Positions 28,868 through 60,828 of a stretch of 64,000 nucleotides of DNA are shown here, in pieces; position 1 is the stretch's first letter, and each line of letters opens with the position of its first letter. The notes beneath the pieces were generated by a model. The model saw only the letters and a list, made by a program, of their open reading frames with translations, was not told the origin of the DNA and made no database searches. The DNA is from [Pseudopropionibacterium] massiliense (lineage in GTDB: Bacteria > Actinomycetota > Actinomycetes > Propionibacteriales > Propionibacteriaceae), in assembly GCF_900607225.1 (NCBI RefSeq), contig NZ_LR027842.1, positions 2,582,284-2,646,283 on the forward strand, given 5' to 3'. The position numbers and the translations under genes were made by a program.

Positions 28868-30537
<1,670 letters not shown>

Positions 30538-30548
<11 letters not shown>

Positions 30549-32109
30549 GCGAGAACTCCGAGATGAGGTTCGGGACGCTCAGGTCGAAGCCTGCGACATC
30601 CAGCATGCCGGGATCACCCGGATCGGCGATGCTGAACCTGCTCGCGTCCATGCCCACCACGATGAGCTTCGCATCGATGCCCATCGTGTCCCGGTACCGG
30701 GACAGGGCCTGGTGCGGGTGGATCTTCCCGTACCAGGTCTCGTTGTCGGTGTAGATGATGAAGGTGTCCACCTCCACCTTCTGCTTGAGTGCATGGAGCA
30801 TTGGCTGCGCACAGTCCGTCGAGCCGAAGGGCAGACCGTCGATGCGACGCAGCACATCGTCGAGACGCTGCCTGGGTGAGATGTCCAGCGGCACGAAACG
30901 GTCCTGGAAGGCCATCACCGAGACCTGCGGTTCGGTGGCCAGCTGCACGAGGCAGAGTGCCGCCGAGGCCTCCCGCGGGGTGAGCGGGGTGCCCGCAAGA
31001 CCTCCCAGGGCCATCGACCCTGAGACGTCGAGCCCCACGAGGGTTCGCTTCCCCGCCGGCGTGACCGCCCCGAAAGCTGCGTGGAAGGCCGCATCGAGGG
31101 CATCGGTCACCTTGGCGGTGGGCTCCCACGTCGAGCCGCCCCGGAAGGAACGACCAGCCGCGTAGGTGCGGGCCGCCGCCAGCACAGTGACGGGGTGCAC
31201 CCGGGCCCGGCGCAGCCGCTCCGGATCGGCGAGCTGCGCACACACCTCGTCGGTGCGTCCCCCGAGCCCCGGCAGCAAACCGAGGCGGGTGAGTCGCGGC
31301 AGCTGCCTCAGCAGCGCGGTCTGCGGGATACCGACATCCAGAAGCGCTTCCCAGACCTCAGCCTTGGTCACGGCCTCGTCGGGAAGCATCTCCCAGGTGA
31401 GGCGGTACTGACGGATCAGCTCCACCCACCTCGCAACGTCACGGGTCGCCTGGGCGGCCATGAAACCGTGGATGAGCTGCGGGGTGTGCTCGTCGACGCC
31501 GGAACGCACGATCCACTCGAAGGTGGAACGCAGCTCCGGCACCACCGTCGCAGGATGGGACAGTCGCAGCAGATCACGGTGGCTCCAGCCCTCACGTTGC
31601 CGGTACTTAACCGCCTGGTGGGCCAAGGCGTCGGCGCCCCTGTCGAGGTACCAGGACCCGACGGCGCGCCGGAGCCCGCGTCCCCAGCCACGGAACTGAC
31701 CGACGTACCCCGCGAAGGTGAACAGGTGCATTCCCGTGCGGGCGACGCGCGGCAGGGCCGCCAGGGCCAGCGGCGACGACTCTGCCACGGAGGTCGCGTA
31801 GGCCAGGGCGAACAGGGCCGGTCCCTGCTTGGGCGCGACGCCTCCTTCGGAGACCTCGACGATGGTCTCGACGAGGCCCGTCGGGTCACTGGAAGCCATT
31901 CGGGTGAGGACCTTCACGTTGTCGAGCGCGAGCTCACGCGGAGCGACGTAGTAGGTGCCACCATCGACCCCCAAGGTCAGGAAGCGACGCAGGCGCGCCC
32001 GATCATCGAGCCGGAAGGTGTATCCGCCCGCCGAATTGGGGACCTGGCGTGCGTCGGCCGGTTCACTCTGCCGTGCGACTCGGGTACTGATGGCACGAAG
32101 GGGGTCCAT
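30538..32109 (-). CDS. rsr: TROVE-domain protein, Ro60 orthologue (Rsr)
   Basis: A 523-residue ring-forming RNA-binding protein. The TROVE HEAT-repeat domain spans about 20-350 and a von Willebrand A-like domain about 355-523, with the metal site DVSGS (Asp361, Ser363, Ser365) and later TDN. The length and layout match Ro60/Rsr, which binds Y RNA and, in Deinococcus, tethers PNPase for structured-RNA degradation. A strong AAAGGAGG lies 7 nt before the ATG. Two tRNA-like RNA candidates lie immediately upstream on the same strand, and a small HTH gene overlaps its end. No rtcB/rtcA genes are nearby. Confidence 0.93.
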
Positions 32110-32150: not shown

Positions 32151-32297
32151 CTGGGCCCGGGCGGGCATGAGGTGGGCACCGGCTGGGCTTACGCCCGGCG
32201 CTCTCGACCGCTGAGCTACCCCCGGAGGGAGCGGGATTCGAACCCGCGACTCCTCATGGATAGTGATACCTGATGCTCTTCGGGCCGCCCGGGCCAG
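32151..32297 (-). ncRNA. Candidate Y RNA (YrlA-like, permuted tRNA-like) upstream of rsr
   Basis: The minus-strand RNA is closed by a 12-bp stem: 5' arm 32297-32286 (CTGGCCCGGGCG) with 3' arm 32163-32151, one bulge. Inside, in 5' to 3' order, are a T arm (GCGGG-TTCGAAT-CCCGC, 32247-32231), an acceptor-like hairpin closed by a short loop (CTCCC/GGGGG, about 32232-32217), and a D arm (GCTC...GAGC, 32216-32200), then a GGGC-GTAA-GCCC hairpin. T arm before D arm with a closed acceptor is the known layout of bacterial YrlA RNAs, which mimic tRNA. TACTGA (32307-32302) lies 5 nt upstream as a possible -10. The RNA ends about 41 nt before the rsr start. Confidence 0.78.
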
Positions 32298-32373
32298 AAA
32301 GTCAGTACGCGAGGGCCGCCCGGACGTGTGTTGACATCCGGGTGCATCATCGTTCGGATGACTACCGAACGTC

Positions 32374-32519
32374 GGCCCGCGGAAGGCGAACCGAGGGGAC
32401 TTGAACCCCGAGCAGACCGCGCTGGTCCGCATTACCACTTTGATAACCGAGCATCTCCGGCCCGGGCGGTCCTCGCGCTGTGGAGTTGTGTTCTCGCGGG
32501 CCTCTCGGCCCATCAACTG
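32374..32519 (-). ncRNA. Second candidate tRNA-like/Y RNA with its own promoter
   Basis: The closing stem GGCCCGCG (32502-32495) pairs with CGCGGGCC (32381-32374). Inside are a D-like hairpin TTATCA-AAG-TGGTAA (about 32447-32432), a 7-bp hairpin GCGGACC/GGTCTGC (32430-32412), and a T arm GGGG-TTCAAGT-CCCC (32409-32395). A 5' hairpin GGGCC-GAGA-GGCCC competes with the closing stem. No acceptor consistent with a charged tRNA can be built. Two hairpins follow downstream (32371-32351 and 32342-32319), without T-runs. It lies in tandem with the other candidate and rsr. Confidence 0.6.
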
Positions 32520-32530
32520 TGTAACACAGT
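32516..32530. promoter_or_regulatory. 15-bp palindrome over the RNA promoter, possible operator
   Basis: ACTGTGT-A-ACACAGT, perfectly symmetric around one central base, overlaps the -10 and start site of the tRNA-like RNA. It looks like a repressor site; no regulator is assigned. Confidence 0.5.
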
Positions 32531-32554
32531 ACACACTTTGCGGCCAAGGCACAA
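32526..32554 (-). promoter_or_regulatory. Promoter of the distal tRNA-like RNA
   Basis: On the minus strand, -35 TTGTGC (32554-32549), a 17-bp spacer, and -10 TACTGT (32531-32526). Predicted start is about 32519. Confidence 0.55.
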
Positions 32555-59553: not shown

Positions 59554-60615
59554 ATGGTGAGATTCAACACGGATCCCTTGGTGGCTCCCCTCGCCCCGCA
59601 GGAGTTGCAGGTCCTGAAACAGCGCCGCAGAAACGGCGAGTTCGGACCCCACAAGTCGTCCACGTGGCTTCTCGTGCTCATCTTCGTGGTCGCCTTCGTC
59701 TTGAGCGCCTTCAACTTCTTCATCGGCTTGCGATTCTCCAGATCCTCGAATCAGTTCCTGCTCTTCGCGCTCTTTTTCTGCGCAGTCCTCGTCACGATGG
59801 CCGTCACTGTCGTCAGGAACCTTTTGAAGGCTCGTCGGCGCCGGATGGACTGGGCCCTGCTGGCGCGTTTCGCCGACGCCAACGGGATGCGGTTCGGAAT
59901 CCGCTCGGCCGATCCCAACTACCCGGGGCTGCTTTTCAACAAGGGGCGTTCCCGGGCCTCCACCTTCCATCTGTTCTCCCCGACCGGGGTGCTGGCCGAT
60001 GCCGGCTGCTACGAATACACCACGGGTTCGGGCGAGGACAACACCACCCACCGCTGGCGTTTCGCCGCGTTCCGGCTGCCGCATCCCGTACCGCACCTGC
60101 TGCTCGACGCCAGGGCGAACAACGGCAGGTGGGGAACGAACCTGCCGGAGACCTTCGCGTCCTCGCAGCGCATCAGCCTGGGGGAACCCTTCGACAGCCA
60201 CTACCAGCTCTACGCCCCCGACGGTTACGGCCGCGACGCCTTCCAGCTGCTGCCGCCCCACGTCATGGAGGCCTTGCTGAACACCCGGGTGGTCTACGAC
60301 ATCGAAATGGTCGACGACTGGTTGTTCTGCTACACGGGTTCCGCCCAGGATCTGACGAACCCGGCCACCTGGCGCCTGCTGGAGACCATCGCGAACGGCG
60401 TGCTGGGTTCGCTCACCCCGGTCGTCGGCCGCTACAGCGATCCACGTGCGCTGGCCGGGGCTGCGGGGAACGCCGGTTACGGACCGGGATACCCCGTTCA
60501 GGTCGCGCCGGAGGGCAAACGGCTGCGGCGCGGGGTGAACATCTCGGTCTTCATCGTGTTCGCCGTCTTCCTGGCCTACATGATCCTGACCAGGTTCCTC
60601 GGGCTCCCCGGGTAG
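59554..60615 (+). CDS. Membrane protein, tandem paralogue B
   Basis: A 353-residue copy of the preceding gene, sharing long identical stretches in the soluble domain (ARFADANGMRFGIRSA, FDSHYQLYAPDGYGRDAFQL, VYDIEMVDDWLFCYT) but diverged in the membrane segments. GAGG lies 4-5 nt before the ATG. The two probably arose by tandem duplication and share a role, which is unknown. Confidence 0.78.
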   Translation: MVRFNTDPLVAPLAPQELQVLKQRRRNGEFGPHKSSTWLLVLIFVVAFVLSAFNFFIGLRFSRSSNQFLLFALFFCAVLVTMAVTVVRNLLKARRRRMDWALLARFADANGMRFGIRSADPNYPGLLFNKGRSRASTFHLFSPTGVLADAGCYEYTTGSGEDNTTHRWRFAAFRLPHPVPHLLLDARANNGRWGTNLPETFASSQRISLGEPFDSHYQLYAPDGYGRDAFQLLPPHVMEALLNTRVVYDIEMVDDWLFCYTGSAQDLTNPATWRLLETIANGVLGSLTPVVGRYSDPRALAGAAGNAGYGPGYPVQVAPEGKRLRRGVNISVFIVFAVFLAYMILTRFLGLPG

Positions 60616-60682
60616 GAGTCGAACCTACTTCGCTAGTCCTGATTCAAAGTCAGGCGGGCCCTGCCGGAAGACCAACCGGGGA
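60604..60682 (-). tRNA. tRNA-Gln (anticodon UUG)
   Basis: Acceptor TCCCCGG/CCGGGGA, D arm GGTC...GGCC, anticodon stem CCTGA/TCAGG around CTTTGAA (anticodon UUG), T arm GTAGG-TTCGACT-CCTAC, discriminator G. The variable region is 9 nt (ACTAGCGAA), longer than usual for glutamine, and only CC of CCA is encoded. A tRNA near glmU is common in actinobacteria, which supports the call. Confidence 0.8.
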
Positions 60683-60828
60683 ACGGCCCGAACCCCGGGC
60701 CGGTCGCAAGTCTAACGGAAAGAAGTGCTCGTTGGGTTTCCACATTCTCGCGTCGGCGTTGCGTTTCCGGAGGATCCGGCTCCGGTGTGTTCATGATTAC
60801 TGAAGGAGGATCGATCCGAGGAGGAGAC

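Follow-up and report, generated by a model that had tools for sequence, protein, structure and literature searches.

The minus-strand RNA at about 32308-32477 of the window, the whole 64,000-nucleotide stretch of [Pseudopropionibacterium] massiliense DNA analysed here, is very probably a bacterial Y RNA that works through Rsr, judging from its sequence and those of its relatives. This RNA, here called element 2, lies in tandem with a first Y RNA (element 1), and both are located directly upstream of rsr and on its strand. Element 2 represents a T-arm-only (T-only) sub-type of bacterial Y RNA in which the tRNA shape is only partly preserved; the novelty of this sub-type with respect to the earlier literature is uncertain. 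Comparison with related loci shows a predicted Y core together with an effector loop in which a capped acceptor-like hairpin accompanies a canonical T arm. Most likely, element 2 would bind Rsr and offer its T arm to a nuclease or to enzymes that recognise tRNAs.

Read along the minus strand, the locus begins with a promoter-like region (32554-32518), after which come element 2, element 1, rsr and, last, a small HTH-like gene. The rsr gene (30538-32109, minus strand) encodes a Ro60 orthologue with TROVE and Ro60 vWA domains (Pfam PF25045 and PF05731). Its product scores 512 bits against the NCBIfam model NF041674, "RNA-binding protein Rsr", which is below the model cutoff of 900, and its nearest named relatives are A. 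propionica records with 82-83% identity, which places the window in the genus Arachnia. The distribution of rsr within the genus is patchy: nine same-genus genomes carry the gene and at least 20 do not, and the Y RNAs occur where it occurs and are missing where it is missing.

The extent of element 2 was derived from family motifs in the window, which delimit a module at 32316-32469, and from a further 7 bp that extend its closing stem to 32308-32477. With two additional bases on each side (32306-32479), the RNA folds with -94.2 kcal/mol and a z-score of -4.73, and none of 200 shuffles folds as well. The Rsr-type closing stem, based on sequence, fold and pairing counts, consists of a 5' strand at 32460-32477 (CGCGAGG, one mismatched a at 32470, and CCGCCCGGGC) and a 3' strand at 32308-32325 (GTCCGGGCGG, one mismatched c at 32315, and CCTCGCG). 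The core comprises the 10-bp lower stem, a CGRAG internal loop, the 9-bp upper stem (TCGG/CCGG), and then the UUAYC motif. Covariation among modules identifies the two strands of the upper stem as GATGCTCGG (32447-32455) and CCGGATGTC (32333-32341), which contain one C-A mismatch, and the UUAUC motif that directly follows the stem (32442-32446) is invariant in A4. Element 2 has the build of a Y RNA: its two ends pair to form a lower stem, above which lie a conserved, asymmetric internal loop and then an upper stem.

The loop beyond the core contains the partial tRNA likeness. The linker after UUAUC reads AAAGUGGUAAU and includes UGGUA (32433-32437), a D-loop-like UGGYR motif recognised by motif counts across modules. 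It is followed at the variable-arm position by an extra hairpin in the fold, GCGGACC-AGCGC-GGTCTGC (32412-32430), whose stem GCGGACC/GGTCTGC is retained in locus L004 with a changed loop. The canonical T arm GGGG-TTCAAGT-CCCC, described in the first-pass annotation, is present exactly as given there, on the minus strand at 32409-32395. The same annotation had stated that the RNA cannot form an acceptor stem. A 9-bp hairpin, TCGGTTCGC-CTTCC-GCGGGCCGA (32372-32394, 7 bp of it in the computed fold), nevertheless follows the T arm at the place of the YrlA-type capped acceptor stem, and nearly all T-only modules have a hairpin there. At the D-arm position, the sequence contains a hairpin without D-arm consensus, CGTTCGG-TAGTCAT-CCGAACG (32351-32371); its 7-bp stem is also found in the fold of L004, and the minimum-energy fold of the window has an alternative pairing in this region. 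The Y stem would take the place of the tRNA anticodon arm, and the acceptor ends would be joined by the cap, as in element 1.

The minimum-energy fold of the single sequence lacks the upper stem and prefers a local hairpin, in which UUAUC pairs with GGUAA. This local hairpin, TTATCAAAGTGGTAA (32446-32432), is the D-like hairpin that had been noticed earlier, and it is indeed visible as such. By inspection, the UUAUC-GGUAA pairing is possible in the window and in L004, but there is no covariation behind it, and UUAYC is kept even in modules that have no pairing partner for it.

Covariation supports the core fold. A repeated module with the 5' motif G-CCGRnG-nnnn-TCGGTTAYC and the 3' motif CCGG-...-CAC-GYCCG occurs upstream of rsr in the family of the window (28 rsr loci). 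In 72 modules with 58 distinct stems, 96% of the cells of the inner 10-bp lower stem are paired, compared with 70%, and at most 75%, with shuffled partners. The outer six pairs of the lower stem are paired in 93% versus 54% of cells in the 35 motif-anchored stems, which were counted separately because pairing had helped to place the 3' strand in the full set. The sequence of the 9-bp upper stem is free to vary while its pairing is kept (72 modules, 3' strand placed by best pairing). This stem also covaries in a set of 14 T-only modules taken from other families, which were aligned with MAFFT without structure; changes on both sides affect 16 of 24 pairs in these modules and 7.4 in shuffles. 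Double-changed cells number 44 in this set, the training set of the R1 model, and 11 in shuffles, and the signal is lost when the partner is slid. The T stem covaries in T-only modules as well, with both-side changes in four of its five pairs.

R1 is a covariance model built from the 14 other-family modules, to whose training the window's family contributed no sequence. In the window, it matches element 2 at 32316-32469 (38.6 bits, E 1.3e-5) and element 1 at 32157-32292 (31.0 bits, E 4.2e-4), E-values that are rough because the calibration was short; beyond these two elements, the window holds no match better than E 0.9. In the whole genome of the strain, elements 1 and 2 are the only R1 matches. 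The earlier claim that two RNAs lie here one behind the other is confirmed.

The earlier reading had drawn this RNA differently, at 32374-32519, closed by an 8-bp stem (32502-32495 with 32381-32374), with the D-like hairpin followed by the T arm, and had offered it as a possible new tRNA-like RNA class. The 8 bp are able to pair, and a D-like UGGYR before the T arm is recurrent. However, the segment 32374-32519 folds no better than shuffles (z -0.61, 53 of 200 shuffles as good), a result that holds for either strand, and its boundaries exclude the 3' portion of the conserved core. The proposed closing stem takes its 3' strand from a local hairpin, of which this is likewise the 3' strand; its 5' strand falls within a leader that most relatives lack or have in a different form. 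This fold is very improbable; covariation supports a fold for the element, but not the one drawn at that time.

The Y RNA reading is also consistent with the distribution of the modules. In the 197 genomes of the window's family, an R1 match is found in 26 of the 30 genomes that carry rsr and in none of the 167 that lack it. Of the four genomes missed, three have contigs that break off at or inside rsr, and the remaining one, G164, shows weaker matches on direct search. Within this family, modules of this kind occur only where a Ro60 orthologue is encoded as well. In 64 viral and 59 other-family rsr loci, all R1 matches lie on the rsr strand. The covarying Y core, the same-strand position directly upstream of rsr, and the occurrence only with rsr support the earlier suggestion that element 2 may be a paralogous Y RNA working with Rsr, and this suggestion also survived the check for absence among rsr-bearing relatives, in which the element was present. 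The Streptomyces-like TROVE proteins of one large-genome genus (g32) are not accompanied by an R1 match. One further R1 match (46.3 bits), at 152260-152396 of contig C105 in genome G246, lies on a contig different from that of the TROVE gene.

Element 2 could alternatively be the remnant of a tRNA gene, or a tRNA-like pseudogene, located near rsr by chance. The canonical T arm and weak tRNA-Sec and mascRNA-like matches point in this direction. A tRNA would have an acceptor stem formed from two ends, together with D, anticodon and T arms; element 2 does not show this arrangement, no acceptor strands flank its body, and neither ARAGORN nor Rfam at the gathering threshold reports a tRNA or any other match at the locus. 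Moreover, its lower and upper stems are conserved and covarying. Y-core covariation and co-occurrence with rsr led to the rejection of the tRNA remnant, the probability of which is practically negligible. Elsewhere in the window, ARAGORN reports an 83-nt tRNA-Gln (60601-60683, minus strand) that is absent from the Rfam results, and R1 matches its T arm only.

As a Y RNA, element 2 is not covered by any bacterial Rfam family at the gathering threshold. It does not show the YrlA order of T arm, capped acceptor stem and D arm, as the 3' D-arm consensus is absent, and it gives no match to the YrlA model RF02553 at E up to 5; the gathering score of 69 of this model is strict, because clear modules of relatives with both T and D arms (T+D modules) also remain below it. 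No bacterial Y family of Rfam reaches gathering in 20 rsr loci, and the T+D modules in these loci match YrlA below gathering, with up to 52 bits. The nematode stem-bulge RNA (sbRNA) model RF01656 matches T-only modules, in two actinobacterial cases above its gathering score of 38 (L084 1359-1468, 42.0 bits; L080 1365-1470, 38.9 bits). Element 2 itself has no match to RF01656, and the UUAUC motif also lies within the RF01656 match of a relative.

Element 1 (32157-32292, minus strand) is the more YrlA-like of the two RNAs, with the layout T arm (32231-32247), capped acceptor hairpin TCCCTCC/GGGGGTA, and D arm GCTC..GAGC (32200-32216). It matches RF02553 with 26.5 bits, below the gathering score of 69. 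Its core at 32261-32284 (minus strand) is substituted, reading CCCGAAGAGCATCAGGTATC where L004 has GCCGAAGAGCATCGGTTATC, and the scores are 31 and 51.9 bits, respectively. Because of this substituted core motif, element 1, or the locus, may be decaying in the strain of the window. The first-pass annotation held that the second RNA differs from the first in arm order. The T arm followed by an acceptor-like hairpin is ordered as in element 1; the part of the claim that stands is that element 2 has no canonical 3' D arm and carries a D-loop-like UGGYR on the 5' side, since T-only modules often have this motif just after UUAYC.

Modules were sorted by simple patterns into the classes T+D, T-only and neither. 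UGGYR within 6 nt of UUAYC is found in 31 of 77 T-only modules, none of 121 T+D modules and 10 of 141 with neither arm; the p-value of 2e-15 for T-only versus T+D overstates independence because the module sequences are related. In a module set found without R1, the counts are 29 of 47 T-only and 2 of 77 T+D modules. The motif is thus not universal in the T-only class, and the simplest reading is that UGGYR may supply a D-loop-like GG from the 5' side. T+D and T-only modules stand side by side in 31 of the 54 other-family rsr loci with matches. By inspection, T+D precedes T-only in 29 of these 31, and the minimal module, where present, is usually last; the order is reversed in the window, L004, L009 and L028. 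T-only Y RNAs are thus repeatedly found next to Y RNAs of the tRNA-mimic type in the region upstream of rsr, both in actinobacteria and on viral contigs, and the term "new tRNA-like RNA class" is too strong for what is a T-arm-only sub-type of Y RNA.

On viral contigs, the number of modules reaches seven (L136). Tandem arrays of six or seven Y RNA modules were observed in the viral (IMG/VR) rsr loci L136 (545-1426), L167, L160 and L186, and three other viral loci (L177, L185 and L188) have their Y modules downstream, not upstream, of rsr. A broader proposal, put forward tentatively, is that T-only Y RNAs may be a distinct tRNA mimic in which the T-loop-docking GG comes from the 5' linker UGGYR and not from a D arm. 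They would then stand in the middle of a three-type array with a set order (tRNA mimic, T-only, minimal), which would provide several interchangeable adaptors per Rsr in bacteria and viral genomes.

The second RNA had also been credited with its own promoter. A promoter-like region does lie just upstream of element 2, with the candidate TTGTGC, 17 nt, TACTGT (32526-32554, minus strand) in the same register as TTGACA-17-TACTGT in L005-L007. It is most likely common to both RNAs and rsr, since only about 15 nt separate the end of element 2 from element 1. A scan for consensus promoters and terminators reported nothing at the locus, this candidate included. The -10 box overlaps a palindromic operator candidate, TGTGTACTGTGTTACACA (32518-32535), which is conserved ahead of the first module, either as such or as a related form, in 21 same-family loci including the window, and which is a single site in the 3.48-Mb genome with up to three mismatches. 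The small HTH-like gene (30261-30548, minus strand) follows rsr in most same-family loci and directly in 12 of 59 other-family loci; its product belongs to no clear family (Pfam MRP-L20, 28.4 bits, below the cutoff of 30.4). A TGTGTA-type operator occurs in 7 of the 59 other-family loci, in six of which the HTH gene follows rsr, while the seventh contig ends at rsr. Because of this co-occurrence, the HTH protein is a candidate repressor that may act through the operator.

The arrangement raises the question of whether the modules act mainly in cis. Both lie between the sole evident promoter and the rsr start codon without a detected terminator, a ribosome-binding site (AAAGGAGG) immediately follows element 1, and module arrays are found upstream of rsr in nearly all relatives. 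Rsr might therefore bind its own 5' region and regulate translation or stability of its mRNA, with free Y RNA being secondary. This reading is unlikely, since every module is closed by a stem of its own, as free Y RNAs are, modules also occur downstream of rsr in L177, L185 and L188, and the bacterial Y RNAs studied are free small RNAs (PMC4726728).

If element 2 acts as a Y RNA, the promoter and operator region at about 32518-32554 would produce one transcript containing element 2, element 1 and rsr, from which both Y RNAs might be excised or within which they might be active. The lower stem of element 2 would bind to the outside of the Rsr ring, and the UGGYR linker would perhaps lock the T arm in the role of the D-loop GG. 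The T arm could make the Rsr particle recognisable to T-arm-binding enzymes of the TruB/TrmA type and could act as the adaptor that links it to an RNase, for example PNPase; as the effector partner, PNPase or another RNase is a rather doubtful candidate. Element 1 would be the fuller mimic, with T, acceptor and D parts, and the two RNAs would therefore give two Rsr particles with different partners. An array in which ordered Y RNAs mimic tRNA to different degrees makes the purpose of the effector domain testable by comparison within one locus. A. propionica is the current name of Propionibacterium propionicum. Ro60 particles of P. propionicum with bacterial Y RNAs are reported to be precipitated by the sera of lupus patients (Greiling et al., cited in PMC11277228). 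Knowledge of the Y RNA content of these particles would be directly useful in that context.

Among known RNAs, the nematode stem-bulge RNAs (RF01656, ceN72-3_ceN74-2) share the core CGGxCCGxxG, an upper stem, and GGUUAUC with element 2. Unlike it, they are animal RNAs, and the loop domain of their model is not matched to the T arm. The match of bacterial T-only modules to this model bears on a review statement that denies homology between bacterial and vertebrate Y RNAs (PMC4726728), but the nematode similarity alone is not decisive: shared ancestry and convergence are both possible. The Y RNA of Deinococcus radiodurans (DrY, RYPER) resembles element 2 in being small, modular, encoded with rsr, and equipped with a lower stem for Rsr, a likeness drawn from published descriptions of DrY; the tethering of PNPase is a feature of DrY (PMC4726728, PMC8394870). 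YrlA (RF02553) binds Rsr by its basal stem and is a substrate modified by DusA and TruB (PMC8394870, PMC4726728). Element 2 differs from YrlA in the missing canonical 3' D arm, the 5' D-loop-like UGGYR, and the extra hairpin before the T arm, and it resembles YrlA in the Y stem that closes a loop with a T arm and then a capped acceptor-like hairpin, in the position of its gene next to rsr, and in its presumed binding to Rsr.
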